Assembly (NCBI GenBank): GCA_031286305.1
Contig: JAITUM010000018.1
Span: 1 to 35,703 of the forward strand
DNA: 35,703 nt
From: Candidatus Fibrimonadaceae bacterium
Lineage (GTDB): Bacteria; Fibrobacterota; Fibrobacteria; Fibrobacterales; Fibrobacteraceae
Direction: 5' to 3'
The notes beneath the pieces were generated by a model that was not told the DNA's origin, searched no databases, and saw only the letters and a program-made list of their open reading frames with translations. Below, piece after piece: positions 960 through 23,352 of this stretch (positions within the stretch are counted from its first letter, which is position 1; each line of letters opens with the position of its first letter). A program made the translations under genes and the position numbers.

Positions 960-1145
960 ATGGACATATTGCAAAATCTTGAGAATGAGTTGGAGTTGTT
1001 TAAGGATGACTTCGCCAAGTTCGAGCGCGGGAATAAAACCGCAGGGATCCGTGCGCGTAAGCACTTGCAGAACATTAAGCGAGCAGCTCAAGAGTTGCGG
1101 AATGTAATACAAAGTGTGAAAAAGGAAGAAGAGGGAAAGAAATGA
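960..1145 (+). CDS. Histone H1-like (Hc1-type) small protein
   Basis: The 61-residue, charged, helical protein resembles the N-terminal part of the Hc1 family, known from Chlamydia HctA and many free-living bacteria. It has an N-terminal helix (LENELELFKDDFAKFERG), the family-like turn GNKTAGIRARKH, then NIKRAAQELRNVI and a lysine-rich tail (KKEEEGKK). Hc1 proteins bind DNA non-specifically and compact the nucleoid. The long Lys/Ala tail of chlamydial Hc1 is absent, so any DNA binding would rest on the helical hairpin. GGAG lies 5 nt before the ATG. Its stop codon overlaps the start of the next gene by 4 bp (ATGA), so the two are probably translationally coupled. Confidence 0.6.
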   Translation: MDILQNLENELELFKDDFAKFERGNKTAGIRARKHLQNIKRAAQELRNVIQSVKKEEEGKK

Positions 1146-2512
1146 GAGCATTCATTATAGCAGTAGTAGCAGTATTTTTTGCAACATCGTTATCTTTTGC
1201 ACAAGGAACTGCTAGAGGTGGTGGTGGTGGTAGAATAGCTGCTAGGCAAGGTCCTAAAACCATTCGGGTTCCCCAAGATTATAAAACCATATCCGATGCG
1301 CTTGGAAACGCAGATGCCGGTGACACCGTTCTTGTTCGGCGTGGCGTTTATAACGAGAATATAACCCTTGTTATGGATGTAGTGCTCAAAGGCGAAGATC
1401 CCCTAACTACCATAATAGATGGTGGCCGCAGAGGGCCGACAGTCATGGGTGTAACTGAATCGGAGATTTCTCACTTCACAATCCGCAATGGTTTGGAAGG
1501 AATTCTTTGCGAAAATACTGGTGGTCTTTATATTCACAATAATATTGTACTGGATAACCATGCCACAGGTATAGCAGCATTTATTTCGCTACCTTCCATT
1601 GCCAATAACGTTGTTTATGGTAATCGCTGGAGTGGTATCCTAGCTTGGGGTGCTAAGTCTCTAGACTCCAAAATAGAGCATAATGTGGTGCTTCGCAACG
1701 GTTATTCCGGGCTTGCACTCAAAGGTCCTTCTAACGTTGTGGTGACCAACAATATCTTTATGGAGAACCATTATTACGGTGTTTATGCAGATCCGGCTTC
1801 CGGTCAAACTCGTATGGGTTTCAATAACATATATAAGAACTATTATCCTTTCAACCGCTTTATCAAAATTGACAGAACCAATGTTTCTTTGGAGCCTATG
1901 TTCCGCAGTCCATCTATCTTCAATCCCAATTTCTTTGTGCAGCCCAAATCTCCAATGGTTAGAAGAGGGCAAAGTCGCCGCGATATAGGTTTGATACAAG
2001 ACATTTCCGTGGTTCGTCCCCAGAAAGTGGTAGATGAAACAGGAATTGTAACTCATGTTCCTGTTCAGGAAGAGCCGGAACCGGAATTCATTCCCGAAGA
2101 AATAGAATTTGTTCCGGAACCAGAGCCGGAACCAGAGCCGGAAGCTCCGCCTCCACCTCCGCCGCCAAGAAGAGTGTTCGTGGTGGAAGGTGTTAATTTC
2201 GTTAGCGGAAAAGCGGATATTACGGATGAATCATTCGGCAATCTTATGGTAGTGGTGGAAACTATGCAAACCTATCCGGATGTCACATTCAAGGTAGTTG
2301 GGCATACGGACAATCAAGGTGGAAGAGATGCAAACCAAAGACTCTCCGAGGCTCGTGCGAAAGCCGTGGTAGATTTTTTGATTAGTCGCGGTATAAGTTC
2401 GGGGCGCTTCACTTTTGAAGGAAGAGGACCGGATCAACCTATTGCAACCAATAACACGGCTGCGGGCAGAGCAAAAAACCGCCGCATAGAGTTCCAGCGC
2501 ACGGATAACTAA
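1142..2512 (+). CDS. Beta-helix protein with C-terminal OmpA peptidoglycan-binding domain
   Basis: This 456-residue exported protein has four parts. Residues 1-20 are a signal peptide ending SLSFAQ. A Gly-rich linker follows. A right-handed parallel beta-helix of the NosD/DUF1565 type spans about 40-270 (VPQDYKTISDALGNADAGDT start, then repeated N-x-I/V turns such as IHNNIVLDNHATGI). An EPEPEP/PPPPPP hinge lies around 310-343, and an OmpA-C domain spans 345-456 (VNFVSGKADIT, VGHTDNQGGRDANQRLSEAR). OmpA-C domains bind diaminopimelate in peptidoglycan, here probably holding the beta-helix in the periplasm. It has no lipobox, so it is not a Pal-type lipoprotein. AAGAAGAGGGAAAG precedes the start. 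It leads the envelope cluster and ends 13 bp before the likely start of the next gene. Confidence 0.8.
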   Translation: MRAFIIAVVAVFFATSLSFAQGTARGGGGGRIAARQGPKTIRVPQDYKTISDALGNADAGDTVLVRRGVYNENITLVMDVVLKGEDPLTTIIDGGRRGPTVMGVTESEISHFTIRNGLEGILCENTGGLYIHNNIVLDNHATGIAAFISLPSIANNVVYGNRWSGILAWGAKSLDSKIEHNVVLRNGYSGLALKGPSNVVVTNNIFMENHYYGVYADPASGQTRMGFNNIYKNYYPFNRFIKIDRTNVSLEPMFRSPSIFNPNFFVQPKSPMVRRGQSRRDIGLIQDISVVRPQKVVDETGIVTHVPVQEEPEPEFIPEEIEFVPEPEPEPEPEAPPPPPPPRRVFVVEGVNFVSGKADITDESFGNLMVVVETMQTYPDVTFKVVGHTDNQGGRDANQRLSEARAKAVVDFLISRGISSGRFTFEGRGPDQPIATNNTAAGRAKNRRIEFQRTDN

Positions 2513-2525
2513 GGAGAAATTGAAA

Positions 2526-4781
2526 GTGAAACATTTACTACTGTCCATTGCGTTAGTGTTAAGTTTTGCAGGCTATGCGCTTGCACAATTGTCGCCATCT
2601 TATTCTCCAAACAAATATCAGCAAAATGATTGGTTTGGTGAGTTTGGCGGAACAACTTCCATGTATGTCAATCCTGCAGGCATAGCAGAAAACGACCAGC
2701 TGGAAGTTACAGGTGGTTTTTTCAGCACCATAAGCGGTGCGGCCATGCAAGAATACGGTTCCATTGTGTGGCCTTTGGATTATAATCACTCCTTTGGCTT
2801 CACCTTCTTTGAAAACGGAGCTTCGGTAGACAACAGTGCAAGAGGCTCTTACACGGAAAACGCCTACATACTTGGCTATGCTTACCGCGTGTTCCATTGG
2901 CTGGCTATAGGTACAAACCTGTCCATTTTGCAGGTGAACCAATTTAACCACAACAAGCATCTCTCCATGGGTGCGGATTTTGGTATTAGCTGGAATCCTG
3001 TAAGCAATTCAAAGTTTGGTCATGTGCAAGTGGGTGTTGCTATTCAAAACCTTTTGCAACCGGTTATTGCCAATGCAAGCGAAGAAGGCAACAGCAACTA
3101 TGGGTTTTTCCCTCCCATATTCGGAGGCAAGAGCGACGATGGTTATGCAATTCCGTCTAACTTGAATTTGTCCTTGTTCTATCGTGGCTTAAACCGCGCT
3201 TTAGAAATAAAGACTGAAGTTAGCATTATAGATATTTTCCACGATGAAGACGAAGGTGGCAATGGTAATATGATGGAGTTCGGCGTTTCTGCCACCTACT
3301 TTATAACCTCGCATCTTGGCGTTAAAGGTCGCTTGACCAAAGAGGGTTATCCTGTTATCGGTGCAACCGTAAATGTAAAAGATGTGAACTTGTTCCGCTA
3401 CCTCGGGTTGGATCTCGAAATGTCTCACGATGATTTGATTGAGAAAAAGAATCGTGGATTTTTGTGGAATGTTCGTGCAACGGCCCGCTTTGGCGATACC
3501 CGTGAAGAGAGCATTGGCGAAGCCAGATACCGCCGCTTGAAGATAGAGCCGGAAAACGATTACCGTGCCGCAATGCGTTTGTATTTGAACCGCGACTTTA
3601 TTGCTGCTTCTTATGCGTTTGGCAAGGTGCAAACAAAGTATCCCACATTCCACTTGGTTGACCAAGCAGCTTTCTACAAAGGCAAATCCTTTGAAAATAT
3701 GCGTATGCATTTGGCTGCACAAAGAGTTTATCAAGAGGCTATCAGAAAATATCCTCATTCCGACCAAATTCCAAAATACCATTTCCAGTTGATGAACATA
3801 GACTATAAAGAAGGTCGTTATGGCGATGCTATGACGAAATACCAATACATAGTTCAGCACTTCCCCAAGTCTGATGTAAAACCGGATGCGGATTATATTG
3901 CCGGTCAAATAAAGTTTGAGCAGGGTCAGAATAAAGAGGCTGTTGAGTTGCTATCTTCAATTTTACCCGGAAATGCCAATTATTTCTACGCTCGTTATAC
4001 AATGGGTATAGCATATAGCCGTGATTCGCGTTGGCAAGAGGCCAAAGGTGCCTTTAACGATATTTTGACTCAGCAGTCTTCTAACCAGTCCGAAAGAGAC
4101 TTGCAAGATGCTGCGAGAGTAAAACTCGGGCACATTTACTTTGCCGAACCGGATGGTTTGGCTGAGGCAGCACAGCTTTACGGTCAGGTGACCAACACAG
4201 CCTCTCCGTTCTACGAAGAAGCGGCTCTTGCGCTTGCATGGAGCTTCTTGAAGGTTCGCGACACAAGAAATGCTCGTCCCTTTACCACTTGGATAATAAG
4301 AAACCGTTCGGACTCTTACTTGATATCCGAAGCGCACCTTGTTGAAGGTTATTGCTTCTATATGGAAGGCGATTTGAACCGTGCTGAAGCCAGCTTGAAC
4401 AGAGCGATACAGCTCACGGAAAACCCGACCATTACAAAGGAACAGAGAGATAGCGCAAAAGTTAATTTTGACGGCATGAAGGAGAACTTTGATAGCGTTC
4501 AAGTTAGAGCTTTGGATTTGGCACGCCAGTTGCCGACTCCGAGAGTTGAACAGAGACGTGCTGCACTTCGTCCGGATTTTGAAAGAGCTAATCGTGAAAT
4601 TGAAACCTTTGCTGAATTCCAGCAGAGAGTTATTCAGAGCGATCGCTTTGAGGCAAGCAGGCAACGAGTTTTGGGTGATGCAAAGTTGACCAGTGCGGTT
4701 GTATCTTCGAAGAAGGCTACGCAACCTGGCGGTGGAGCGACTCCGGGCTTAGATGCATTGGGCGATTTGGATGATTTGTAA
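2526..4781 (+). CDS. PorV-like outer-membrane barrel fused to TPR repeats
   Basis: The 751-residue protein has a signal peptide (LLLSIALVLSFAGYALAQ). Residues about 20-330 resemble the PorV/PorQ (UPF0164) barrel family (TSMYVNPAGIAE, NHSFGFTFFENG, LAIGTNLSILQVN). From about 340-650 there are TPR units of the BamD/YbgF type (FAASYAFGKVQTKYPT-like helices, AQRVYQEAIRKYPHSDQIP, GDAMTKYQYIVQHFPKSDV). The tail is Gln/Ala-rich. GTG 2526 is preferred over the in-frame TTG 2520, because AAGGAG at 2511-2516 is 9 nt from the former and only 3 nt from the latter. A barrel joined to a periplasmic TPR scaffold would link the outer membrane to the neighbouring energised complex. The function is inferred. 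Confidence 0.7.
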   Translation: MKHLLLSIALVLSFAGYALAQLSPSYSPNKYQQNDWFGEFGGTTSMYVNPAGIAENDQLEVTGGFFSTISGAAMQEYGSIVWPLDYNHSFGFTFFENGASVDNSARGSYTENAYILGYAYRVFHWLAIGTNLSILQVNQFNHNKHLSMGADFGISWNPVSNSKFGHVQVGVAIQNLLQPVIANASEEGNSNYGFFPPIFGGKSDDGYAIPSNLNLSLFYRGLNRALEIKTEVSIIDIFHDEDEGGNGNMMEFGVSATYFITSHLGVKGRLTKEGYPVIGATVNVKDVNLFRYLGLDLEMSHDDLIEKKNRGFLWNVRATARFGDTREESIGEARYRRLKIEPENDYRAAMRLYLNRDFIAASYAFGKVQTKYPTFHLVDQAAFYKGKSFENMRMHLAAQRVYQEAIRKYPHSDQIPKYHFQLMNIDYKEGRYGDAMTKYQYIVQHFPKSDVKPDADYIAGQIKFEQGQNKEAVELLSSILPGNANYFYARYTMGIAYSRDSRWQEAKGAFNDILTQQSSNQSERDLQDAARVKLGHIYFAEPDGLAEAAQLYGQVTNTASPFYEEAALALAWSFLKVRDTRNARPFTTWIIRNRSDSYLISEAHLVEGYCFYMEGDLNRAEASLNRAIQLTENPTITKEQRDSAKVNFDGMKENFDSVQVRALDLARQLPTPRVEQRRAALRPDFERANREIETFAEFQQRVIQSDRFEASRQRVLGDAKLTSAVVSSKKATQPGGGATPGLDALGDLDDL

Positions 4782-4815
4782 CAGGGAGTAACCAGTTATT
4801 GTAGGAACAATGAGT

Positions 4816-7800
4816 ATGAATTTGAGACTTCTCTTTATTGGAACTTTAGCATTAGCTAGCGCAGCGTTTGCGCAAGCTGATAGCAGGGCGTGTAAAACGG
4901 AAACCGACAGGGCAAAAGCTCTTCACGAAAGATGCACGAAAATGGGCAGGAATGCTTCCGGTTACGCAAAGTGCGCTGAGGATTTTAGAAACCAAAGAGC
5001 CAGAGCTGAACAGGCTTGCCGTGCTAGTTCGGTTGCCAGTGTAAGCGATCTTGAATCTGCTGTTAAAAAATGGGAAGATCTTTCCAACACTAACAGGTGC
5101 CGCACAAACGATGCTAAAAGAAACAATAACTGCGCCACGATTTTGCAGCAATGGGGGCAGGAGCTGTTCAAACTGGGAGAGTTCAGATTCACCGAACAGC
5201 AGACCAAATTTGAAGAACTTGTGCAATTCTGTGCAGACCGCGATAACAACGTGCAAAGGTTCCCGCAGTGCGCCAAAATAAGCGACCCTCCGAAACCCAA
5301 TCACGATGCCGCTTTGCCGGTTTTCTTGGACTATGTTAAACACTTCCCCGATGGGTCAAGTGCACCGAACATGCTTTTCCAGGCTTCCTTTATTTTGGAA
5401 ACAAAAGGCGAGCATGATCGTGCTTTGCAACTTCGTCAGGAGTTGGTGAGAAAATATCCGAACCATACTTTGGCTCCGGGCGCATGGCTCCGTATAGGTG
5501 AGCATTATTATAGCAGAAACAGATGGGGAGATGCTATTAAAGCCTACGAAAGAATCACAAGTTACCCTGCAAATACACCTAGAGAAAGAAGAGAAGCTAC
5601 TTTAGCCATATATCACTTGGCTGAATCTTATTATAACCAGGCTGATTTTGAAGTTGCCGCACGGAAATTTTGGGAATACATAGACGGTGCGGACAAAGGC
5701 AGATTTGTGCCGGATTTGCGCGTTGAAGCTATGGACTTTATGGCAACGGCGTTTTCCGATTTGGACGATGGTATTAAAGTAGCCGATAAATTTATAAGAC
5801 CCAAAAAGCTTCCATATCAAGATTCTCTTTATTTCCGCATAGGAATGAAGGCTAAAGATCACGATCGCCATGATCAGGCAATTCAGGCTTTTGACTTTTT
5901 GCTACAGGCCAACCCAACTTATATAGACGCTCCTCTTGCTGATTTGGCAATGGTTGAAATCTATCTTTTGCAGCAAAAACCGGACAAAGCTCAAGACCAG
6001 CGTTTTTTGGTTATTAAACGTTATGACCGCAATTCGCCTTGGTACAGAAGAAACAGTGCCCACAAAGAAAGCGTGGCAAATGCAGAGCGTGCAATTCGCT
6101 TGGCAATGATGGATATTCCGGTTTATATGCACTTTACCGCTTCGGAATTGAATAAAAGAGGCGATACCGAAGGTGCGAAAAAGAAATATGCAGAAGCAGT
6201 TAAGGCTTATAATGATTTCTTGAATCGTTATAAAAACGAGCCGGACTGGAACGAGTACAGAGTTTATATGAACATGGCCGTTATCTATCATGAGCTTGGT
6301 CAGTTTGATAGAGAAGCTGCTGCGTTTAACTGGATTGTAGATGCTGATACCAGCCGCTATGGTCGCCGTCCGCAGAACCTTGGCGTTCTTATAACCAAAA
6401 GCGAGGCCGGTTATAATGCGGTGCTTGCAATGGACAGAGCTCGCGAACACGCTTTGAAAACCAAGGCCGGGGGCGACACTGTTAAAGCTTATAGCTTGCC
6501 GGAAACCAGAGCGTATTTTGCTCAGGTTGATAGGTACATGTCAAGGTTTGGCAAAGATACTGCTGCGCCGGATTTGGCATACAATGCCGCTATAGTTCAC
6601 TATCAGGCAAAACAATATAAAACAGCAATTGATGTGTTGCGTAAACTATCTGGAGACTTCCCAAGCCACAAGCACACTCTCCTGATTCGCCGCATGTTGG
6701 CGCAGTCTCTCTTAGAAGACGGTCAGTTAGACGAAGCTCAGAATGAGTTCGAGTGGCTGTTCACTCAATATACTGATAGAAGAGGTTTGGGTGTTAGAGA
6801 TTCCAATGCAGTTACTACAGCAAAAGAAATTGAAACTTCTATTGCGGCTGTGCTTTATCAAAAAGCAGAGAGAGCGGTTAAGAGCGGTCAGCATGTTCAA
6901 GGTGCAGATGCCTACGTAGCATTGGTTAAGCGTTTCCCCAGAGCTGAGTTTAGCGATAGAGCTTTGTTTGAAGCTGCAGCAGCTTACGAGCAAGGTGGTC
7001 AAAGCACAAAGGCAGCCGAAACTTGGATGCGTTTGCCCAGAGAATACGGCAAGTCTCCTTTGGCGGTTCGTTCCATTGTTCGTGCAGCCCTTGCTTACAA
7101 AAAAGACAAGAAATTCACAGAAGGCGCAAGAGCTTACCTCTTTATAGTTGATAACTATCCGCAAGATACCATGGCTATAAATGCGATTTTTGCCGCAGCG
7201 CAAACTTTTGACTCAATTCCGGCAAGAGACTCTGCCGCTATAAGAGCAAACAAAAGAATTGTTGCTCAAACCTATGAAATTGGTTTCAAAAAATTCCCCA
7301 ACCATGAGAAGACTCCCGGCTTGCTTTATAACGCTTGCTTGGCTTACGATGATGCTAGAGATACCAAAGAGGCTATTCGTTGCGCTCGCGACCTAATTAG
7401 AGCGTATCCAAAAAGCTCTTATGCTCTTGATGCCGCTTATAGCATACCTTTGGCATACGAGAATGCTAAAGATTGGCCAAACGCCATTAAGGAATACGAT
7501 TTCTTTGTTAAGAATTATTCAACCGACAAAGAAAAGTTAATCAACGCCTTTACCAAAATGGCACGTGCGCATATGGAGATGAAAGACACCGCTAGGGCAG
7601 CGGCTGCCTATAGGAATACCATTACCAACTATGACAGGTATGGTGTTCAGCTCGCTAATTCAGACCCTTCATTTGCAGCAGAGGCTTCCTTTATGCTGGG
7701 TGAATTTGAAAGAGTAACCATGGCTCCGCTTGTAATTAGAGGCAACGATAAAGCCAAGTTGGACATGGTTAAAAGGTTAATGACCATTCTGCAGTCTGCA

Positions 7801-8664
7801 ACCGCTCACTATTCAAAGTCAGCTACATACGCTTCTGAAAAATGGACTTTCCGTTCTAGAAACCGCATTGCCGAGCTGTTTGTTGCGGTTGCCGCAAAGG
7901 TTCGCGAACAGGAAATTGACGTTAGAGACAGAAGAGGCAATGTTGATAAAGAAAGGCTCTTTGTTGAAAGAATTCAGGTTGTTCAGCAGTTGCCTTCTTA
8001 TTACGAGCAGGCGCGTCCGCTGTTCCAGTCTAACATTGACCTTGCTCGTGAGCAAGGTTACTACAACCCTGATGTGGTGGCTGCCCAAGACGGTTACATT
8101 GAAATGTTCTACCGTGATTGCGAAAACTTCTATCAAGTGGGCAGGGCATTTGCCGAGGCTCCGTTGCCTGATAGCGCAGCTATGGTCAGGGAATACATGG
8201 AATTTGAGGGTATGGTTAGAGAAGATGCCGTGATGACCGTGGCAGAAGAACTTGAGCTTTACCGCGAAGAGCTAATGAACAAGAGTCAAACAGCCAAGCA
8301 GGGAGCTTTGCCCCGTTGCGCGAGTGGCATAAAGGCTGCCGCCCACTATGGCATCAAAAACAGATGGACGGATAGCTTATTTACCCTTGTTCGGACAATT
8401 GATTCGGAAAATGAGATTTTGTCAACGACCATAAAGGAATTTGACCCGAGCACTTTGTTCAGAGATGACCATTATAACAGAACAAAGGCTCGTTTAACGC
8501 AAATTGAAGGTTCCGCAGACCTTACGCCTCAAGAAAAGCTAACCACCTATAAGGAAATAGCCTCTGATGCCAAGACTCGGAACGCCAATTTGAGAAGAGA
8601 ATTGGAAAATTTGAGAAACCAGTGGAGAGCTAGACAGGCACCTCCGCCGGAGGATTCGCCATAA
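4816..8664 (+). CDS. Giant periplasmic TPR-repeat protein
   Basis: This is a 1282-residue exported solenoid. The signal peptide is LRLLFIGTLALASAAFAQA. A Cys-rich N-terminal 150 residues (eight Cys) may form disulfides. Many TPR-like helix pairs then run to about 1000, for example HDRALQLRQELVRKYPNHT, GDAIKAYERITSYP, YKTAIDVLRKLSGDFPSHK and AIKEYDFFVKNYSTD. A charged helical C-terminus ends NLRNQWRARQAPPPEDSP. ATG 4816 is chosen over ATG 4810 because AGGA at 4803-4806 is 9 nt away. Large TPR proteins such as GltD/GltE-type and AglT-type proteins accompany the TolQR-like motors of Myxococcus gliding complexes, and the gene order here suggests a similar scaffold role. This analogy is not proof of orthology. 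Confidence 0.7.
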   Translation: MNLRLLFIGTLALASAAFAQADSRACKTETDRAKALHERCTKMGRNASGYAKCAEDFRNQRARAEQACRASSVASVSDLESAVKKWEDLSNTNRCRTNDAKRNNNCATILQQWGQELFKLGEFRFTEQQTKFEELVQFCADRDNNVQRFPQCAKISDPPKPNHDAALPVFLDYVKHFPDGSSAPNMLFQASFILETKGEHDRALQLRQELVRKYPNHTLAPGAWLRIGEHYYSRNRWGDAIKAYERITSYPANTPRERREATLAIYHLAESYYNQADFEVAARKFWEYIDGADKGRFVPDLRVEAMDFMATAFSDLDDGIKVADKFIRPKKLPYQDSLYFRIGMKAKDHDRHDQAIQAFDFLLQANPTYIDAPLADLAMVEIYLLQQKPDKAQDQRFLVIKRYDRNSPWYRRNSAHKESVANAERAIRLAMMDIPVYMHFTASELNKRGDTEGAKKKYAEAVKAYNDFLNRYKNEPDWNEYRVYMNMAVIYHELGQFDREAAAFNWIVDADTSRYGRRPQNLGVLITKSEAGYNAVLAMDRAREHALKTKAGGDTVKAYSLPETRAYFAQVDRYMSRFGKDTAAPDLAYNAAIVHYQAKQYKTAIDVLRKLSGDFPSHKHTLLIRRMLAQSLLEDGQLDEAQNEFEWLFTQYTDRRGLGVRDSNAVTTAKEIETSIAAVLYQKAERAVKSGQHVQGADAYVALVKRFPRAEFSDRALFEAAAAYEQGGQSTKAAETWMRLPREYGKSPLAVRSIVRAALAYKKDKKFTEGARAYLFIVDNYPQDTMAINAIFAAAQTFDSIPARDSAAIRANKRIVAQTYEIGFKKFPNHEKTPGLLYNACLAYDDARDTKEAIRCARDLIRAYPKSSYALDAAYSIPLAYENAKDWPNAIKEYDFFVKNYSTDKEKLINAFTKMARAHMEMKDTARAAAAYRNTITNYDRYGVQLANSDPSFAAEASFMLGEFERVTMAPLVIRGNDKAKLDMVKRLMTILQSATAHYSKSATYASEKWTFRSRNRIAELFVAVAAKVREQEIDVRDRRGNVDKERLFVERIQVVQQLPSYYEQARPLFQSNIDLAREQGYYNPDVVAAQDGYIEMFYRDCENFYQVGRAFAEAPLPDSAAMVREYMEFEGMVREDAVMTVAEELELYREELMNKSQTAKQGALPRCASGIKAAAHYGIKNRWTDSLFTLVRTIDSENEILSTTIKEFDPSTLFRDDHYNRTKARLTQIEGSADLTPQEKLTTYKEIASDAKTRNANLRRELENLRNQWRARQAPPPEDSP

Positions 8665-8678
8665 AATTAAAAAAAATG

Positions 8679-8718
8679 ATATAGATTGTCTTTTTTTAAA
8701 AAAAATAATCTATATTAT
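8679..8718. promoter_or_regulatory. Long AT hairpin overlapping tolQ promoter
   Basis: ATATAGATT (8679-8687) and AATCTATAT (8707-8715) are a perfect 9-bp inverted repeat. The central T7 and A7 runs can extend the pairing to the loop. The right arm contains CTATATTAT, giving a -10 box TATATT (8711-8716) or TATTAT (8713-8718). The element may terminate the TPR gene, bind a dimeric regulator at the tolQ promoter, or both. AGGAG at 8751-8755 is the tolQ ribosome binding site. Confidence 0.55.
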
Positions 8719-8762
8719 ACAATGAAAAGTTTCACTCATCCATTAACCATAGGAGTAAAAAA

Positions 8763-9395
8763 ATGGAAATAGTCTTTAATAACACGCTGAAATCATTTAA
8801 CCCAAGTGAGGCGGGTTGGCAGTTCATGTGGGTCATCTTATTAGTGGGTCTTGCCGGTGTAGGTATAGCCGTTGAGAGATTCATCTATATTTTCCTGCGC
8901 TCTTCAAAAGGGCGCGATGCTTTTCTCAAAGATTTCGGTACTTTGGTAGCTGCAAAGAAATTTGAGGAAGCAACCTCTATGTGCAAAGCTTCCAAGCTTC
9001 CTATAGCGGCTGTTTTAGGGCCTGTAATAGAGGCTCGTGATAAAGGAAAAGATGCTCTTGTAGCAGCAGCAGATGCCGCATTCTTAACAGAGGCACCTCG
9101 AGTAAATAGATATTTATCCGTTATAACACTTATAGCTTCCGTTGCAACGCTCTTGGGCCTTGCAGGAACAATTTTCGGTCTGATTATAACCTTTGATGCT
9201 GTGGCTAACAAACCGGCTGCGGAACGCCCGCAAGCACTTGCGAATGGTATCTCTATAGCAATGGGTACAACGCTCTTGGGTCTTGCAGCTGCAATTCCTT
9301 TGCTCATGGTTCAGGGCTTTTTGACCATGCTTTCAGAACGCGTTATTCAAGAAATGGAAGAAAAGAGTTTAAAAGTTATCAACTCGTTTGCATAA
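8763..9395 (+). CDS. MotA/TolQ/ExbB proton-channel family protein
   Basis: The 210-residue inner-membrane protein has three membrane segments, at about 20-45, 116-145 and 158-188. The second and third carry the family signatures LLGLAGTIFGLIITF and ALANGISIAMGTTLLGLAAAIP. In ExbB/TolQ/AglR these helices form a pentamer around the ExbD/TolR dimer and couple proton flow to motion or envelope work. The length is close to TolQ/ExbB. It is followed 28 bp later by two ExbD-like genes and a TonB-like gene, so an ExbB-ExbD-type motor is nearly certain. The choice between Tol-Pal, TonB energisation and gliding remains open. Confidence 0.9.
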   Translation: MEIVFNNTLKSFNPSEAGWQFMWVILLVGLAGVGIAVERFIYIFLRSSKGRDAFLKDFGTLVAAKKFEEATSMCKASKLPIAAVLGPVIEARDKGKDALVAAADAAFLTEAPRVNRYLSVITLIASVATLLGLAGTIFGLIITFDAVANKPAAERPQALANGISIAMGTTLLGLAAAIPLLMVQGFLTMLSERVIQEMEEKSLKVINSFA

Positions 9396-9423
9396 CTTGT
9401 AACTTGTAAATTGGAGCTTGCTT

Positions 9424-10302
9424 ATGGCAAAACAGCTTAGAAAAGCAGAAAAGCAAAAAGAAATGGATATGCTGCCGGTTATGGCTCTCATGACCGTTCT
9501 TATCCCTGTTATCTTGACCATGGCATCTTTTCAAAAATTGGCCATTGTAGAGGTAAATTTACCTGAAAGGAGCGAGATATCCATGGATAGCGAGCCTCCT
9601 CCTCCGGATGATAATGCATTGAATTTGACCGTAGCCATTACCAGGGAATACCTTGAGATTTGGGCACGCGGCGGTTCTTTGCCTCGCGAGTATTATAAGG
9701 AAATGTGGACATTCCGTTGCAGAAGCGATGGCGACACAATCACTTATGATCCAGCCACCTTTGTCTATGATGATAAGGGGGCAGCGAAAAATCCACCTAA
9801 ATGCCAGGATGGCAGGGAGCTGGATTCGGAGAAGTTCAGGTATTCAATAGAAACCATACATCTATGGGCTTTGCATAAGGAGAGTGAAGAAGATCCGGGC
9901 AAAATAAAAATGTCCGTTTATAGCAAAACCGACTCCGCTTACTTAGATGGAAACAATGAATTTATCACGGATATATCTTTGGCAAGGCCCGGTTCAACGG
10001 TTGCAACTCTAGCTGAAAGCTCCGCTAGGAGGCTTGCTTGCGGGCAATCTGCTCCGGGTGTGGAAGATATATGCTATGATGGCAAACCTGCGATAAGTTT
10101 AAGACCTCGCAGTGCTTATGATGAGCTTGCAAAAACTCTCATGATGATTCATAATCGTTTTGTAGATAGCCCTGATGCCGATAACATAATTGTTTTGGCT
10201 GATGATGACACGGCTTTTGACAAAATTATCAGTGTTATGGATAGAGCACGTGATTCGGGATTCTTTAAAATCAACCTAGCCAAATTGGCTGCAGGAGGGT
10301 AA
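9424..10302 (+). CDS. Enlarged ExbD/TolR-like protein lacking the transmembrane Asp
   Basis: This is a 292-residue type II membrane protein: a short basic N-terminus, one membrane helix (about 17-35, LPVMALMTVLIPVILTMASF) and a long periplasmic part. It ends in an ExbD-like segment (NIIVLADDDTAFDKIISVMDRARDSGFFKINLAKL region). Typical ExbD/TolR are about 140 residues, so about 150 residues are inserted, including four cysteines (FRCRSD, PPKCQD, RLACGQ, DICYDG). At the position of the proton-binding Asp (TPLIDV in ExbD, Asp21 in the next gene) it has Ala21. ATG 9424 is chosen over TTG 9418 because GGAG at 9413-9416 is 7 nt away. It is probably a structural partner of the functional ExbD. Confidence 0.7.
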   Translation: MAKQLRKAEKQKEMDMLPVMALMTVLIPVILTMASFQKLAIVEVNLPERSEISMDSEPPPPDDNALNLTVAITREYLEIWARGGSLPREYYKEMWTFRCRSDGDTITYDPATFVYDDKGAAKNPPKCQDGRELDSEKFRYSIETIHLWALHKESEEDPGKIKMSVYSKTDSAYLDGNNEFITDISLARPGSTVATLAESSARRLACGQSAPGVEDICYDGKPAISLRPRSAYDELAKTLMMIHNRFVDSPDADNIIVLADDDTAFDKIISVMDRARDSGFFKINLAKLAAGG

Positions 10303-10303
10303 A

Positions 10304-10795
10304 ATGGCAAGAAAAGTTAGGCAATATGGTGATATGCCTCAGTTTTCACTAACATCCATGATGGACATTATGACCATTATTCTAGTGTTCATGATTAAGC
10401 AGGTGGATAGCGAAGGTCAGTTGATAACAGCTGCTGAAAACTTGGTTTTGCCAAACTCAACATCCACAAAAACACCTAAGGAAGTTTCTTTGGGTTTGGT
10501 TGTTGATGCAAACTGGGTTTTGGTTGATGGTGATCGGGTTGTGGAAACCAGCATTGTAGCCGGGCAAGACACGCTTTTGGTTGCCGCTTTAGACGAAGTG
10601 CTTAAAGATAAGCGCGAAATTGAAAAGCAAGCAAAAATAGCCAGAGGCGAAGCCGATGAAGGTGGTGGTAATATAATTGTGCAGTTAGATAAAAACATGC
10701 ATTATGATGTGATGTATAAAATCATGGCAACATGCGGCTTTTCGGGCTTTACCAATGTTGCATTTGCCGTTAACCAGTTGAATCCGGAGGAATAA
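10304..10795 (+). CDS. ExbD/TolR family biopolymer transport protein
   Basis: The 163-residue protein has one membrane helix (about 17-34) containing SLTSMMDIMTIILVFM, where Asp21 matches the essential proton-carrying Asp of ExbD/TolR. The periplasmic domain ends NIIVQLDKNMHYDVMYKIMA...GFTNVAFAV, the usual ExbD fold. In the family, a dimer sits in the ExbB/TolQ pentamer and couples proton-motive force to the periplasm. It starts 1 nt after the stop of the preceding ExbD-like gene (AGGAGGG just upstream) and ends 1 nt before the next start, so it is part of one tightly packed operon. Confidence 0.88.
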   Translation: MARKVRQYGDMPQFSLTSMMDIMTIILVFMIKQVDSEGQLITAAENLVLPNSTSTKTPKEVSLGLVVDANWVLVDGDRVVETSIVAGQDTLLVAALDEVLKDKREIEKQAKIARGEADEGGGNIIVQLDKNMHYDVMYKIMATCGFSGFTNVAFAVNQLNPEE

Positions 10796-10796
10796 C

Positions 10797-11753
10797 ATGG
10801 TCGATTCTAAACCAAAAGTTCAAAAACCGCAAAAACCGCAACTGGATCCCTTTGTGGCTTCCATGCTTCCGGAAAGCGATACGCGCACAGGTAGCTTTAT
10901 GGCTTCGTCTGCAGCGTTGTCACTTTTGCTCGCTGCTTATGCGGCCTTTATCTTTGAAATTGCAGTGGACGAGATTCTATTTGAAAATATAGCATCTGAA
11001 GACTTGTCTGCAACCATGAAGATAGATGAGAACAAGGAAGACAAGAAGAAAGAGGAAAAGAAAACCGAGAAACCTCGCAAAAAGCAAGGTGCCGGTGTAA
11101 AACCTCGCGGCAAGGGACAGCCAAACGCTCCGCAGACTCGTGGTGTGTTGAAGTTGCTCACTGCAAAAACCAGTGCTGCAAACATGAGTGCTTATAACCT
11201 TATGAAAGACCAAAGGTTTGCCAGAGACATAGACAAAGTGTTGAAGGATGTTGCCGGTTTGCAAACTAGTGGTAAAACCGAACTTGGTGGCCGTAGAGGT
11301 TCTGCCACGGGTGGCTTTAACGATGGTTATGCAGAAGGTGGTTCCGGTGGTATCGGCGATATGCTTGGCGGTTTGATGGGTGGTAGCGGTGGTGCTATCG
11401 GCACAAAAGCCAGAGGTTCGCTGAAGGCTCCGAGTGCAAGAGATATTGATATGGGTAGCGGTGATGGTTCTCGCTCAAGGCAAGAAATCATGGCTGTTGT
11501 AAATGCTCGTATGCCGGGCTTACGAAACCTGTACAATAGATATCTGAAGCAAAAACCCGGCTTTAGCGGCAAGGTTACGCTCAGATTTACAATTGCTCCG
11601 GGTGGCGATATTATCAGCATTACCATAACTGATAGCACCACAGGTTTCCCTGAGTTTGATAACGCCATTAAAAATATGGTTGCTACTTGGAAATGGAAAG
11701 CCATTAAGAGCGGTAACACAACACCAACCATTCCATTTAACTTCACGGAATAA
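10797..11753 (+). CDS. AgmX/PglI C-terminal-domain (TonB-like) protein
   Basis: The 318-residue protein is organised like TonB. It has a cytoplasmic Pro/Lys start, a single membrane helix (about 34-57, ASSAALSLLLAAYAAFIF), a Lys/Glu-rich linker (ENKEDKKKEEKKTEKPRKK) and a Gly-rich middle (about 160-215). The C-terminal domain (225-318; IMAVVNARMPGLRNLYNRYL, GKVTLRFTIAPGGDIISITI, FDNAIKNMVATWKWKAI) is the AgmX/PglI 'myxo_SS_tail' type, related to the TonB C-terminus. It would carry force from the ExbBD-like motor to outer-membrane or TPR partners. GGAGG precedes the ATG. It is the last gene of the cluster and is followed by an inverted repeat. Confidence 0.8.
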   Translation: MVDSKPKVQKPQKPQLDPFVASMLPESDTRTGSFMASSAALSLLLAAYAAFIFEIAVDEILFENIASEDLSATMKIDENKEDKKKEEKKTEKPRKKQGAGVKPRGKGQPNAPQTRGVLKLLTAKTSAANMSAYNLMKDQRFARDIDKVLKDVAGLQTSGKTELGGRRGSATGGFNDGYAEGGSGGIGDMLGGLMGGSGGAIGTKARGSLKAPSARDIDMGSGDGSRSRQEIMAVVNARMPGLRNLYNRYLKQKPGFSGKVTLRFTIAPGGDIISITITDSTTGFPEFDNAIKNMVATWKWKAIKSGNTTPTIPFNFTE

Positions 11754-11846: not shown

Positions 11847-12689
11847 ATGAAAATTACAAATACAGAATTTCAGCTTCTCAGGGATTACATTGAAGAGCAA
11901 TGTGGTATTTGCTTGAATAAAGACAAGGCCTATTTGCTTGAAAATAGGCTTGCTTCTTTTATTGAAACTTATAAGTGCAAAGACTTTTCAGAGTTCTATT
12001 ATATTGTGAAGAGCGGGCATCACAGGGATTTGAAAGATAAACTCATAGATGCTATGACTACCAATGAAACTTTGTGGTTCAGGGATACTCATCCGTATTC
12101 TATTCTCAAAGAGAAGATTTTGCCCAGTTTTACCCAAGCGGTTAAGGATGGCAAAAAAAATAAAATTAAAATTTGGAGCGCAGCCAGCAGCACCGGTCAG
12201 GAGCCTTATAGCATAGCCATTACCGTGCGTGATTTTTGCATGGGGCAGAACATAATTAAAAAAGAAATGGTGCAGATAATAGCAACGGATATTTCGGATT
12301 CTTGCCTTGCAAAAGCCAAGGCCGGCAAGTACGATAGCGTTGCCATGAGCAGGGGAGTTTCTCCGGAGCAGTTAAACAGATATTTTGTGAGAGATTCTGC
12401 AAACTCTTATTCTATTAGCCAAGAGATTAAAGACATGGTTAAATTTCAAAAGTTTAACCTGCAAGATAATCCCATTATTTTGGAGCCAAGTTTTGATTTG
12501 GTATTTATGCGTTATGTGGCTATTTATTTTAACGATCAATTTAAAAAAGGTTTATACAGCAGGCTTGCTAGAATTCTTTCTCAGAGGGGTTTTTTAGTAG
12601 TTGGCGCAGTCGAAACGCTCAGAGGTCTAAGCGAAGACTTCGAAATGCTAAACCACGCCGGCGGGTTGTATTACCAGTGTAAGCGTTGA
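11847..12689 (+). CDS. CheR-like protein-glutamate methyltransferase, atypical
   Basis: The 280-residue protein has both CheR parts: the N-terminal helical domain (1-75) with MTTNETLWFRD, and the SAM-binding domain with KIWSAASSTGQEPYSIA (about 108-124) and IIATDIS. CheR uses SAM to methylate receptor glutamates. The usual CRN(V/I)LIYF motif is FMRYVAIYF here, around residue 220, so the conserved Asn is replaced by Tyr. The C-terminus (LVVGAVETLRGLSEDFEML...YYQCKR) is otherwise normal. No strong ribosome binding site precedes the ATG. It lies upstream of pilM rather than in the cheB-cheR pair at 22.2-24.2 kb, so it may serve another partner or have altered activity. Confidence 0.8.
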   Translation: MKITNTEFQLLRDYIEEQCGICLNKDKAYLLENRLASFIETYKCKDFSEFYYIVKSGHHRDLKDKLIDAMTTNETLWFRDTHPYSILKEKILPSFTQAVKDGKKNKIKIWSAASSTGQEPYSIAITVRDFCMGQNIIKKEMVQIIATDISDSCLAKAKAGKYDSVAMSRGVSPEQLNRYFVRDSANSYSISQEIKDMVKFQKFNLQDNPIILEPSFDLVFMRYVAIYFNDQFKKGLYSRLARILSQRGFLVVGAVETLRGLSEDFEMLNHAGGLYYQCKR

Positions 12690-12694
12690 TGCAG

Positions 12695-12881
12695 AGTTTC
12701 GTTGGCTGGGAAGCGATACGCTGAGTTACATTGGTTGGGACATGGGACAAGCGGCGTGCTAAACTACGTTGGTCGGGACATGACTATGCACAAGTTTATG
12801 GCTCATATCCCAGCCAACGTAGCTTTGCATGTCGCTTGTCCCAGCCAACGAAACTCAGCGTATCGCTTGTCCCATGTCCCA
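12695..12881. repeat. Inverted cluster of three plus three degenerate repeat units
   Basis: Units of about 30-38 bp with the core CGTTGGCTGGGACAAGCG occur three times in one orientation (12695-12790) and three times in the opposite orientation (12802-12881). The innermost pair (CTACGTTGG... at 12764 and ...CCAACGTAG ending 12822) can fold into a roughly 20-bp imperfect hairpin. AGTTTCGTTGGCTGGGA (12695-12711) has an exact reverse complement at 12839-12855. The last 29 bp are identical to 137-165. No coding potential is credible here. Confidence 0.75.
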
Positions 12882-12890
12882 AAACAACGT

Positions 12891-12925
12891 TGCTATACTC
12901 CCCATTCCCCATTCCCCATTCCCAG
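12891..12925. repeat. C-rich tandem tract (CCCCATT type)
   Basis: Tandem CCCCATT units (CTCCCCATTCCCCATTCCCC and onward) lie directly upstream of the pilM promoter. They resemble the CCCCATA/CCCTATA tracts upstream of cheB and sdhC. Confidence 0.8.
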
Positions 12926-12926
12926 A

Positions 12927-12952
12927 CATTGAGTATTTACTATATTAACTTC
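12927..12952 (+). promoter_or_regulatory. pilM promoter, predicted leaderless
   Basis: ACATTGAGTATTTACTATAT carries a -10 box TATATT at 12941-12946, the same TTTACTATATTA word as before cheB (sdhC has ATTACTATATTA). The GTG start of pilM is at 12953, only 6 nt past the -10 box, with no ribosome binding site. Transcription would begin at or next to the start codon. Confidence 0.6.
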
Positions 12953-14065
12953 GTGCGACTACACAATTTAATATCAAGGATACGTGGCGAGAGCAAGACG
13001 GTGGGTTTAGACATAGGTCACCGCTTGGCGAGAGTTGCTGTTGTTGAGCATAAACAAGGTATGAAAGGAACTTTGTTGGCTCTGGAACAAGAGACTATTC
13101 CAGAAGGAATTGTGGTAGACAATGAAATACGCAATGTTTCCGTTTTAATAGATAGAGTCCAAACCCTGCTCACTAGAGCCTCGCCCGGAGGCATAGATGG
13201 TGATTTTTTAATCTCGGTGAATTGGACTTCCGGGATTTTATGCGACAAAATGCTGGTAAAGCCTGTACCTAAGGTTCCCGAAAGAGAGCTTATACTGCAA
13301 ACTGCCCAAGGCAGACCACCCTTTGACGATGCCGGCAATATTTTAGACTACTCCATTTTGGAATACAAAGAAGAAGGCATAGAGGCAATGATAGTGGCAG
13401 CTAAAAAAGATAGCCTGACCGCTTGGATAAATTTATTCCAGGCACTGAACATAAAACTTTGCGCCATAGATGTAGATGCTTTTGTTTTGAGCAATATATA
13501 TTCCGCCTCAAGAGCAGATATTTCCGGATTATCATCGGGAGGAGAGGCGGAAATGGATGAATCGGTTTTGCTTCTGAATTTTGGGCACGGCAAATCTTAC
13601 GCTGCTCTTTTGCGGAATGGGCACTTTAGCACGGCCCGCTCAATATTGGGCGGTTCGGTTTCCGATTTGCAAGAGCAACTGTCCGGACCATTGGGAATAT
13701 TGCCCGAGCAGAGCGGGGAATTGCTTATGGGAACCGGAGCTAGAGACTCGGAACTGGATGATTCCAAAATAAAATTTGCAACAGAATTTGTTTTTGAAGA
13801 AGTAGCCATGAAAGTCGACACCGCACTTCGCTATTTCAGTTCAGCCGACAATTATAAAAAACCAACTAAAATGGTACTTACGGGTGGAGGCTCAAATATA
13901 ATTGGTTTGGAAGCATTCCTTGCAGACAGGTTATCCGTGCAATCTGTGCAATTAAATCCGTTTAAAAATGTAGAACTGGACAAAAGTCGCTTTCTTGGAG
14001 TTGATTGGAACACTGCTGCCAGCACATACTCTGTTGCTTTGGGTCTTGCCCTGAGGAGATTTTAA
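12953..14065 (+). CDS. pilM: Type IV pilus assembly ATPase-fold protein PilM
   Basis: The 370-residue protein has an actin/FtsA-like fold. The first phosphate loop is TVGLDIGHRLARVAVVEH (about 14-31), then VLLLNFGHGKSYAALLRNG as second phosphate motif, and MVLTGGGSNIIGLEAFLADR as adenosine motif near the C-terminus. PilM is cytoplasmic and binds the N-terminal INLLP motif of PilN, forming the inner-membrane alignment platform of the pilus. The frame is open far upstream through repeat DNA. GTG 12953 is chosen because it lies 6 nt after a TATATT box and gives the expected N-terminus (RLHNLISRIRGESKTVGLDI). The stop overlaps the pilN start (TAATG). Confidence 0.85.
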   Translation: MRLHNLISRIRGESKTVGLDIGHRLARVAVVEHKQGMKGTLLALEQETIPEGIVVDNEIRNVSVLIDRVQTLLTRASPGGIDGDFLISVNWTSGILCDKMLVKPVPKVPERELILQTAQGRPPFDDAGNILDYSILEYKEEGIEAMIVAAKKDSLTAWINLFQALNIKLCAIDVDAFVLSNIYSASRADISGLSSGGEAEMDESVLLLNFGHGKSYAALLRNGHFSTARSILGGSVSDLQEQLSGPLGILPEQSGELLMGTGARDSELDDSKIKFATEFVFEEVAMKVDTALRYFSSADNYKKPTKMVLTGGGSNIIGLEAFLADRLSVQSVQLNPFKNVELDKSRFLGVDWNTAASTYSVALGLALRRF

Positions 14066-14670
14066 TGGCAAACCTGCAAAGAAATAGTTCATTTATTGAA
14101 ATAAATCTTTTACCTTCAGAGTACAAACGCACTAAGGTAGATTTGTCTTGGCTTTCCGATGCACGTGTTGTGTGGTCAACATTTGCGCTCATCTTGGTAT
14201 CTGTGGTTATGCTGGCCGTGTATGTTTACATAACAGACACTATACACGAACTGGAAAAGGCCGTTGGGCAAACCAAGCAAGCCGTTGAAAAAGAACGACC
14301 TCTGCTCGAAAAGATAAAAGAACTGGATGAGAAATTGGCAGTTATAAAACGAAAGAGCGATGCTCTGCGTTCCATACAAGTTAGCCGCAAGCGCTGGGTC
14401 ATTTTGTTTGAAGATTTATCCACCGCGCTTCCACACGGAACTTGGATAACCGGAATAACGCAAAGCGGAGACCAAATGGATATAAACTGCTCCACATGGA
14501 ATTTTGCGGAGGTTGCACTCTACATGCTCAGGCTGGAGCAAAAAGAAAGTGTTACCGGAGTTTCCCTTACAAGCATAAGCGCAGTTAGAATGAGTGATGA
14601 AGAGGCTTATAATTTTTCGCTTAAAGTTGCATTTAATTCGCAGCTAGGCATGGAAGATGGGGCGCGTTAG
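14065..14670 (+). CDS. pilN: Type IV pilus inner-membrane protein PilN
   Basis: The 201-residue protein begins with the PilM-binding motif FIEINLLPSEYKR (about 10-22). It has one membrane helix (about 40-60, VWSTFALILVSVVMLAVYVY), a coiled coil (LEKAVGQTKQAVEKERPLLE) and a ferredoxin-like periplasmic domain (LPHGTWITGITQSGDQMDI). This is the standard PilN plan. PilN pairs with PilO and carries PilM on its cytoplasmic tail. GAGGAG lies at 14053-14058, 6 nt before the ATG, and the start overlaps the pilM stop by one base. Confidence 0.85.
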   Translation: MANLQRNSSFIEINLLPSEYKRTKVDLSWLSDARVVWSTFALILVSVVMLAVYVYITDTIHELEKAVGQTKQAVEKERPLLEKIKELDEKLAVIKRKSDALRSIQVSRKRWVILFEDLSTALPHGTWITGITQSGDQMDINCSTWNFAEVALYMLRLEQKESVTGVSLTSISAVRMSDEEAYNFSLKVAFNSQLGMEDGAR

Positions 14671-14678
14671 GAGGTTTG

Positions 14679-15278
14679 ATGGCTGTTTCAAATTTTGACA
14701 TAAGAGACAAGAAGAACATATATCTCGTAGTTGCAATTCTCGCTTGCTTAGGTTCGGGTTATTCATTTTATGATTTTATTTGGACAAAGTTCCAAAAAGA
14801 AAAACAGCATCTTGTGGAGGAACAAAAAAACGCTCAAGATGAGTTGGATAGAATTAATGCGCAGAGACCGCGTATCCCAATGTTGGAAGCCGATTTGCGA
14901 AATGCAGAAATTGAGTTTGACAGATTAAAAGAAATGTTCCCCGAAGAAGAGAAGGTTCCCATTCGCTTGCAAGATTTATATGCGGTGGTTAGAGCTTCGG
15001 GTGTTAACATCCAAGCGTTTAGACCTGCCGGTTCGCAAGTTCAAGAACATTTTGTGGAAAACAATTATTCTTTTAATGTCAATGCCGGTTACCATATGCT
15101 GGGTGAGTTGTTTGCAGAAATAGCAAACTTCAATTATCCTACCACCATAAATAATTTAAAGTTAGTTCGTTCCGGTGTCATAGCCCAAGAGGTTAAAAAG
15201 GCGGAAGATCACGGATGGGATCCTATAACAATGGGTGTTTCTTTTGATTTAACTACGTTTACATCGAGGAAGCAATGA
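14679..15278 (+). CDS. pilO: Type IV pilus inner-membrane protein PilO
   Basis: The 199-residue protein has a membrane helix (about 16-33, IYLVVAILACLGSGYSFYDF), a coiled coil (about 40-90) and a C-terminal alpha/beta domain. That domain contains LYAVVRASGVNIQAFRP and GYHMLGELFAEIANF, typical of PilO. PilO heterodimerises with PilN and contacts PilP in the periplasm. ATG 14679 is chosen over TTG 14676 because GGAGG (14670-14674) fits better. It starts 8 nt after pilN and overlaps the next gene by 4 bp (ATGA). Confidence 0.85.
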   Translation: MAVSNFDIRDKKNIYLVVAILACLGSGYSFYDFIWTKFQKEKQHLVEEQKNAQDELDRINAQRPRIPMLEADLRNAEIEFDRLKEMFPEEEKVPIRLQDLYAVVRASGVNIQAFRPAGSQVQEHFVENNYSFNVNAGYHMLGELFAEIANFNYPTTINNLKLVRSGVIAQEVKKAEDHGWDPITMGVSFDLTTFTSRKQ

Positions 15279-16417
15279 TTATGAAAGGCAAGTTATTTTT
15301 GATTTTGGCAATATTTTTTGCAGTGTCTAATGCTCAGGATTTGCATCGTTTTTCTGTTATGCCCCCGAGAATTACAAATGTTTCAGTGCAAAAAAATTCG
15401 GAATGGGAAAAACTTTTGATAGTTTTAGATTTTGATATTCCCAAAAATGTGACTCCTGTGATAACGGATTCTACGGTTGAACTGTCATTTTTTGATGCGC
15501 CGAATTATTCGGATTTGTTTAGAACGGTTAATAGCACATTCTCAAGAGGTTTGGCTTGGAACAATGGCAAGCTCACTATATTTTTATATCGCGGCAGAAA
15601 ACCGGCTGTTATGATTATGAAAAACAGGTTGCTTTTGCAACATGAAACAAGGCCGGGCAGGTTGGAGAATTGGCAGGCCACATCAACAAGCGTAAAGGGT
15701 TCAAATTTCTTTTTGCCGAGTTATGAACCTTTAGCTCAGAGCACATCTGATTTTGCAAGAACCATGGAGCGGAGACCCATGACAATTCCTTCTCTTGCGC
15801 AAACAATACAAGTTAAAAGAACGGATGCTTCTTATTTGGTAGCCGAAGATGTGATATCCGTTTTTCCCACTCCTAGTGAAGGCAGGCCTATAGGTGCTTT
15901 GGAATTTGGCGATCGTTTGAAAGTTTTAGATAGGCGCGACCCATATTATAAAATACGCCACGGCGACAGAGAAGGTTTTGTGTTTCAGCGCGATGTTCTT
16001 TTAGAAGCACAGCTTACCACTTCTCAAAAAGACAAGCTTCGCCGCTTGAGAAAAGATTCGCCGGGCGGTGCGGATAGTGTTGCTTATAAGTTTGGCTGGA
16101 GAGATAGCGATAGAATTGTTTATAGCTCCTATGGTTCCAGAGATCCTTTTGTAGAGGTTAAGAACTTTGGAAGCGAAGGCATTAACATTGATAATTTAAT
16201 TTTGGCAGGCGTTGTTTATGAAAATGAGATGCCTATGGCTCTTTTTTCTGATAACAAAATTAGAGGGCAATCTTACACTCTTCACGAGGGCGACACCATT
16301 AATAACGGCAGAGTACTTAAAATTTCAAGAAACGAAGTGCTGTTCCTGTTGCAGGAATATGGCGTGAGCCGTCGTTATAAAATGTCTTTGCCCGATAAAT
16401 TTGGGGGTATTAAATGA
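15275..16417 (+). CDS. PilP-like protein with N-terminal AMIN-like and SH3 domains
   Basis: The 380-residue exported protein (signal peptide LFLILAIFFAVSNAQ) is about twice the usual PilP length. Residues about 25-130 look like an AMIN-type beta domain (LLIVLDFDIPKNVTPVITDS...LTIFLYRGRKP). Residues about 185-245 form an SH3b-like domain (YLVAEDVISVFPTPSEG, LEFGDRLKVLDRRDPYYKIR). The C-terminus (about 285-375; SRDPFVEVKNF, LAGVVYENEMPMALFSDNK, SYTLHEGDTINNGRVLKI) is a PilP/GspC-like homology region. Classical PilP is a lipoprotein, but no lipobox Cys is visible here. It probably bridges PilNO and the PilQ secretin and supplies a peptidoglycan/AMIN function missing from PilQ. ATG 15281 is an alternative start. 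Confidence 0.72.
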   Translation: MIMKGKLFLILAIFFAVSNAQDLHRFSVMPPRITNVSVQKNSEWEKLLIVLDFDIPKNVTPVITDSTVELSFFDAPNYSDLFRTVNSTFSRGLAWNNGKLTIFLYRGRKPAVMIMKNRLLLQHETRPGRLENWQATSTSVKGSNFFLPSYEPLAQSTSDFARTMERRPMTIPSLAQTIQVKRTDASYLVAEDVISVFPTPSEGRPIGALEFGDRLKVLDRRDPYYKIRHGDREGFVFQRDVLLEAQLTTSQKDKLRRLRKDSPGGADSVAYKFGWRDSDRIVYSSYGSRDPFVEVKNFGSEGINIDNLILAGVVYENEMPMALFSDNKIRGQSYTLHEGDTINNGRVLKISRNEVLFLLQEYGVSRRYKMSLPDKFGGIK

Positions 16418-21926: not shown

Positions 21927-22084
21927 AGCTGGTTCTCCTATTTGGTTTATATTTAGTTAGACGGAAAAAACGGGAAAAATAATTTTAAAAATGCAAAAAA
22001 AATGCAAAGTGCAACTATCTGTTGTCATTTGCTGTGATTTTGAGCTAATTTCGTCGTTTTATTTGATAATTGTAAAAACAATGG

Positions 22085-22147: not shown

Positions 22148-22151
22148 AGCG

Positions 22152-22190: not shown

Positions 22191-22197
22191 TAAAATA

Positions 22198-23343: not shown

Positions 23344-23352
23344 GGTAAGTCT

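Follow-up and report, generated by a model that had tools for sequence, protein, structure and literature searches.

What does a motor of the ExbB/ExbD type do when its genes stand beside that of a TonB-like transducer and those of three large exported proteins? The question is raised by seven genes at 1142-11753 of a 35,703-nucleotide stretch of DNA (contig JAITUM010000018.1, hereafter the window) from a Candidatus Fibrimonadaceae bacterium. This stretch forms contig C193 of a Fibrobacterota genome of 3.19 Mb (G000, assembly GCA_031286305.1). An initial annotation made from the letters alone had proposed a possibly undescribed trans-envelope motor for surface motility, adhesion or outer-membrane constriction. 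We find that the cluster is real, is kept across the phylum and was already half-described under two unconnected names. As the comparisons below indicate, it very probably represents a Fibrobacterota variant of the Glt/Nfs-type core complex. The seven genes, with tetratricopeptide repeats abbreviated as TPR and amino acids as aa, are:

1142..2512, +: exported protein of 456 aa with a right-handed beta-helix (NosD/Beta_helix), a Pro-rich linker and a C-terminal OmpA-like peptidoglycan-binding domain (Pfam OmpA 2.4e-18, NosD 7.9e-14); first in the conserved order
2520..4781, +: barrel-TPR protein of 753 aa, a predicted outer-membrane 14-strand FadL/PorV-type barrel fused to a periplasmic GltC-like TPR domain (AlphaFold2, Foldseek, profile match of the TPR part)
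4810..8664, +: giant periplasmic TPR protein of 1284 aa, GltD-like (TPR/YbgF repeats; its profile covers the GltD-like protein of Pseudomonadota)
8763..9395, +: TolQ/AglR-like proton-channel subunit of 210 aa (Pfam MotA_ExbB 9.9e-22; tree; residues)
9424..10302, +: ExbD1, a long ExbD/TolR with an extra periplasmic stretch (Pfam ExbD 1.8e-09; Asp column; model)
10304..10795, +: ExbD2, an ExbD/TolR of ordinary length (Pfam ExbD 1.8e-15; Asp column)
10797..11753, +: GltG-like transducer of 318 aa with one transmembrane helix, a charged, Gly-rich spacer and an AgmX/PglI TonB-like C-terminal domain (TonB_C; NF033768 1.6e-19; NF033760)

All seven open reading frames were found in the place and common direction first annotated, and Pfam and NCBIfam profiles confirmed their families. 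Two details were corrected. The cluster does not begin at 960, since a small Hc1 histone-like gene, distinct from it, occupies 960-1145 just ahead (also upstream in many Fibrobacteria loci), and the giant TPR protein is two residues longer than the 1282 first given. Because the genes share one strand and are separated by gaps of 7, 28, 98, 28, 1 and 1 bases, they very likely form one operon. The most likely start of ExbD1 is the ATG at 9424; signal peptides were judged by eye.

Relationship to the Glt core complex

When 399 Pseudomonadota genomes were searched with the AgmX/PglI tail model, 16 loci in 14 genomes were recovered. In all 16, the order TolQ-ExbD-ExbD-PglI was the same as in the window, and the first ExbD matched ExbD1 best, the second ExbD2. 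Upstream of this set, where the contig extends far enough, lie genes for proteins of ~1000 and ~650 aa. Fourteen of these loci encode a protein of ~930-1500 aa matching the giant TPR profile (1.6e-27 to 2.7e-77). Several also encode, in the same order, a protein of ~600-680 aa to which the barrel-TPR profile aligns with its TPR half (up to 4.4e-20). Generic TPR similarity was controlled for: with the giant-TPR profile, the adjacent TPR proteins of ~650 aa reached only 3e-05 or worse. Between the giant TPR and TolQ genes, the Pseudomonadota loci carry a ~250-aa TPR lipoprotein, for which the GltE model gives a match in one locus (1.2e-11), and a ~115-aa gene; the Fibrobacterota clusters lack both. 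A fusion of GltD and GltE as the cause of the longer giant TPR protein was not supported, the profile being collinear along the GltD-like proteins.

The TolQ tree gave the same picture. The TolQ of the Fibrobacterota cluster (17 rows) and of the Pseudomonadota cluster (16) lay together on one side of a branch with support 100/98, against 32 other TolQ/ExbB sequences, among them TolQ and ExbB of E. coli and paralogues from the same genomes. Grouping of the Fibrobacterota cluster TolQ with the Tol paralogues of the phylum was rejected (p-AU 0.00024). The transducer matched the GltG model NF033760 at 1.3e-14 over residues 77-316, and at up to 3.2e-31 in relatives; the GltJ model matched it only via the shared tail. 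Plasmid searches with the transducer and the giant TPR protein gave no matches, and a profile scan of general genome contigs with the tail domain, which did not reach Myxococcota, returned Fibrobacterota and two weak proteobacterial matches.

The locus thus holds one TolQ and two ExbDs of the AglRQS subfamily, a GltG-like transducer, and GltD-like and GltC-like TPR proteins in order. Synteny, profiles and the TolQ tree bear out the initial view that it stands closer to Agl/Glt than to classical Tol-Pal. It resembles the Group B "core complex" gltC-gltD-gltE-gltG-aglRQS (PMC3169522) in gene order, TolQ clade, two unlike ExbDs, transducer and TPR proteins. It differs in the barrel fused to the GltC-like TPRs, the added beta-helix-OmpA protein, the long ExbD1, and the lack of a separate GltE or small extra gene. 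The word "undescribed" could not be kept, since this core was already published for one genome of the Fibrobacteres, and proteomic studies have recorded the orthologues in F. succinogenes (PMC4619616, PMC6851124, PMC8092306). Indeed, Luciano et al. 2011 (PMC3169522) reported the seven-gene core in deltaproteobacteria, gammaproteobacteria, one betaproteobacterium and F. succinogenes, lying in one genomic region outside gliders and with an unknown function in non-gliders; the Glt link of Fibrobacter is therefore not new.

Three other systems invite comparison. The Agl-Glt gliding machine of Myxococcus xanthus has the same motor and transducer family, and its GltC works with the outer-membrane barrels GltA/GltB; however, it also has the Group A set, of which no member was identified here, and serves gliding. 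The Agl-Nfs spore-coat surface transporter (Wartel et al. 2013, PMC3858216) uses the same core for a non-motility task, moving surface polysaccharide, but is sporulation-specific and borrows the Agl motor, whereas the Fibrobacterota cluster has its own. Finally, the clusters of PMC12204202 share one TolQ, an unlike TolR pair and a TPR gene, but their transducer ends in a vWA domain rather than a TonB-like one.

Conservation and distinctive parts in Fibrobacterota

The cluster was found to be kept across the phylum. The giant TPR protein was present in 116 of 121 sampled Fibrobacterota genomes, covering all 38 genera, at identities down to ~27%. The complete seven-gene order was observed in 32 fetched loci, equivalent to 28 distinct contigs beyond the window (four were fetched twice), and these include named Raymondbacteria, Chitinispirillaceae and Chitinivibrionales. 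Eleven further fetched loci showed the giant TPR-TolQ-ExbD1-ExbD2-transducer part. The barrel-TPR gene has a separate genomic location in family f6 and a few others, and in family f2 the motor half TolQ-ExbD1-ExbD2-transducer occurs alone, the TPR, barrel and OmpA genes not being alongside (L220:8417-11476, L221:11558-14627). Loss of the cluster in genomes G088 and G091 was rejected, as both keep the TolQ-ExbD1-ExbD2-PglI half, so only G023 stands as a loss. In that genome (98% complete) none of three probes (giant TPR, barrel-TPR, tail) was found while its siblings G025 and G029 have the cluster; therefore, the cluster can be lost. Within the phylum, TolQ branching follows taxonomy, a pattern more in keeping with descent from an ancestor of the phylum than with the recent transfer into Fibrobacter that Luciano et al. 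inferred from one genome. The phylum-wide spread of the core complex in Fibrobacterota is new.

Also new, judging from the alignments, is that the two ExbDs are unequal, one being without the proton-binding Asp almost everywhere. In ExbD2 this residue was present in 50/50 Fibrobacterota and 16/16 Pseudomonadota rows (Asp21 in the window, 10364-10366). ExbD1 had it in 1/52 Fibrobacterota and 0/16 Pseudomonadota rows, with N, G, S, C or A instead (Ala21 in the window, 9484-9486). One of the ExbD rows is incomplete and a few are the same locus fetched twice. This pattern is unlike that of AglQ and AglS of Myxococcus, both described with the Asp (PMC9389320). In TolQ, E176 (E. coli ExbB numbering) was replaced by I, V or M in 17/18 Fibrobacterota and 16/16 Pseudomonadota sequences, while T148 and T181 were kept in all. 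The sole exception, on a long TolQ branch, was L046 (G109:C69), the only Fibrobacterota locus with both the ExbD1 Asp and TolQ Glu176; its motor is perhaps a replaced one. Foldseek gave nothing significant for the extra stretch of ExbD1, and no PDB protein was similar to the transducer by sequence.

The transducer varies between families. In loci of f6, f8, f9 and f12 (L048, L052, L085 and others) it has an added cytoplasmic N-terminal domain of ~75 aa, absent in the window's family, that resembles the ribosomal L7/L12 C-terminal sequence by eye. Its tail also occurs elsewhere. On G000:C55 (L082:2405-8940, minus strand), tandem VIT/vWA-type proteins of 1053 and 1125 aa were seen, the second with an internal AgmX/PglI tail (69 bits, residues 653-743), and comparable long proteins with the tail were seen in relatives (L107, L102 and L114). 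On G000:C82 (L081:3610-4549, plus strand), a short ExbD1-like fragment is followed by a 187-aa lipoprotein-like protein whose tail is close to that of the window's transducer; this looks like a decayed partial copy of the operon end.

The AlphaFold2 model of the barrel-TPR protein (mean pLDDT 79.5) placed TPR helices after a 14-strand barrel. Its Foldseek matches in the PDB were PorV of the type IX secretion system (6h3i_F, TMt 0.57) and FadL (3pgs, TMt 0.45). The "PorV" label first given to it thus holds at the fold level, but its sequence support is weak (UPF0164, 15.8 bits, below cut-off). Only the TPR half (profile positions 376 onward) has a Pseudomonadota counterpart, so the fusion of GltC-like TPRs to a FadL/PorV-type barrel is a new feature predicted by the model. 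Such a fusion makes sense because GltC of Myxococcus is a direct binding partner of the barrels GltA and GltB, and by this analogy it plausibly hard-wires the GltC-barrel contact. The beta-helix-OmpA protein, not seen in any of the Pseudomonadota clusters, seems to be a further addition of the Fibrobacterota. Several barrel-TPR paralogues per genome were noted (G038, contigs C4, C23, C35 and C74; G064), and the fused family appears expanded in some f9 genomes.

Downstream of the operon, the window carries CheR followed by a PilM-PilN-PilO-(SH3 protein)-PilQ type IV pilus set (11847-17829). These genes were rejected as parts of the machine, as they adjoin the cluster only within the window's genus (g1). 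Further on lie a SpoIIE phosphatase (17826-19718) and a PD-(D/E)XK family transposase (21042-21926, minus strand) adjoining a CheB/CheR pair (21991-24216).

F. succinogenes orthologues and alternative functions

Orthologues in F. succinogenes were assigned by order and mass as FSU_2396, 2397, 2398, 2400, 2401, 2402 and 2403. The computed masses of the seven proteins of a relative (55.9, 83.9, 146.4, 22.2, 32.4, 19.9 and 32.6 kDa) compare with published FSU values of 55.97, 83.84, 146.67, 23.06, 32.44, 18.24 and 32.45 kDa. On cellulose, the levels of all seven increase (1.2-1.7 fold). FSU_2396-2404 are strongly expressed in the sheep rumen, and the OmpA and TPR proteins FSU_2396/2397 were reported from vesicles, in one complex with cellulases and a fibro-slime protein.

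The vesicle data, together with a proposed role of FSU_2396-2404 in vesicle formation, could suggest a second Tol-Pal-like system for outer-membrane constriction or control of vesicle release. The cluster does share a TolQR-type motor, a TonB-like transducer, a peptidoglycan-binding OmpA domain and TPRs with Tol-Pal. However, its TolQ belongs to a different clade, and TolB, Pal and CpoB belong to another locus. Pfam TolB_N found TolB in 97/121 Fibrobacterota genomes, and in relatives its gene is part of an ordinary operon that also holds TolQ, TolR, TolA-like, Pal-like and CpoB-like genes (read from open reading frames). TolB_N missed it in all four genomes of the window's genus despite a full-length TolB, so absence calls made with it are unreliable in this phylum. 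A search with a phylum TolB alignment located a full-length TolB on another contig of the window's own genome (G000:C253:12422-13654, E 1.9e-144). The reported absence of TolB, Pal and CpoB therefore holds for the window, but for TolB not for the genome. Because TolB is on another contig and relatives have a tol-pal operon, the cluster does not stand in for a missing Tol-Pal. Reading it as a plain Tol-Pal operon, the case that would have refuted the initial annotation, was rejected, the locus having no TolB or Pal and the relatives intact tol-pal operons, and with a separate Tol-Pal present a constriction role is disfavoured. The 98%-complete G023, without all three probes, also speaks against a second such system, which we consider rather improbable.

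FSU_2400-2403 have been read as a TonB importer (PMC6851124), that is, a TonB/ExbB/ExbD energiser bringing in cellodextrins through an outer-membrane channel. Cellulose induction, the TonB-like tail and the barrel in the operon fit this hypothesis, and the motor fold is common to both. Nevertheless, the channel subunit is not of the ExbB type: TolQ lies in the Glt-core clade, away from ExbB, and does not keep E176. The barrel is of the FadL/PorV type, and no TonB-dependent receptor plug was found by Pfam, model or Foldseek. The giant TPR and GltC-like partners and the unequal ExbDs have no place in such an importer, the transmembrane helix of the transducer shows by eye no TonB/TolA-type SHLS histidine motif, and PMC6851124 itself found no MalA-like receptor. 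An importer is thus improbable.

A true gliding motor, as membership in the Glt/Agl clade and the reported degradation of crystalline cellulose along the crystal axis (PMC3079729) might suggest, seems to us no likelier. No gliding has been shown for the phylum in the literature searched, flagellar swimming occurs in some Chitinispirillaceae, F. succinogenes has been described as lacking active motility (PMC3079729), and Luciano et al. (PMC3169522) argue that the core alone is insufficient for motility. The surface motility first suggested is thus only a possibility.

Least probable is an energised type IX secretion accessory moving or positioning PorV-handled cargo: the barrel type fits and SprA occurs in 119/121 genomes, but co-occurrence is uninformative because both systems are near-universal, G023 keeps SprA without the cluster probes, the same core exists in Pseudomonadota without the barrel, and the locus motor is MotA_ExbB/ExbD rather than GldL/GldM, with SprA on another contig (G000:C272).

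A proposed force machine and growth on cellulose

We lean towards the view that the operon encodes a Glt/Nfs-type trans-envelope force machine, the Fibrobacterota variant of the core complex behind the Myxococcus gliding motor, acting on surface complexes. In this machine, a TolQ pentamer around the ExbD1/ExbD2 pair would draw on the proton gradient to move the transducer, and each motor would have one protonatable Asp. The TonB-like tail of the latter would engage the TPR proteins or the barrel, and the beta-helix-OmpA protein may hold or ratchet the assembly on peptidoglycan. The most likely output would be the pulling or sliding of outer-membrane complexes carrying fibro-slime and cellulase proteins, resulting in active adhesion or surface transport on insoluble polysaccharide, possibly with creeping along fibres. 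Such an output is a tentative proposal. That the cargo is a cellulose-binding surface complex might be suggested, more weakly, by analogy with Agl-Nfs moving spore-coat polysaccharide.

Several points weigh against the force-machine reading, in addition to the reported lack of active motility and the argued insufficiency of the core. Cellulose induction is modest, and ExbD heterodimerisation and motor stoichiometry are presumed. No mutant, localisation or motion data for Fibrobacterota members were found in the literature searched. The operon has no separate GltE gene, the GltE model matching only the Pseudomonadota cluster, and for this reason it is classed as a variant. No Group A protein of Myxococcus (GltA, B, F, H, I, J, K) was identified, models lacking for most. 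Finally, the link to Myxococcus was drawn through NCBIfam models and papers rather than Myxococcus sequences.

It has long been asked by what means Fibrobacter breaks down crystalline cellulose, having neither a cellulosome nor known motility genes. In this operon, two literatures that had remained unconnected come together, on the Glt core complex and on the cellulose-induced FSU_2396-2403, so far read as a TonB importer plus a TPR/OmpA scaffold. It is conceivable, though doubtful at present, that cellulase and fibro-slime complexes on the cell surface are moved or put under tension by a proton-driven machine whose ExbD pair is unequal, so that the cellulosome-less Fibrobacterota would work mechanically along cellulose. 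The unequal pair offers a natural test of the number of proton sites needed by a 5:2 motor. If the genes do form one machine, a deletion series in a cultured, non-pathogenic rumen bacterium could test active surface transport.

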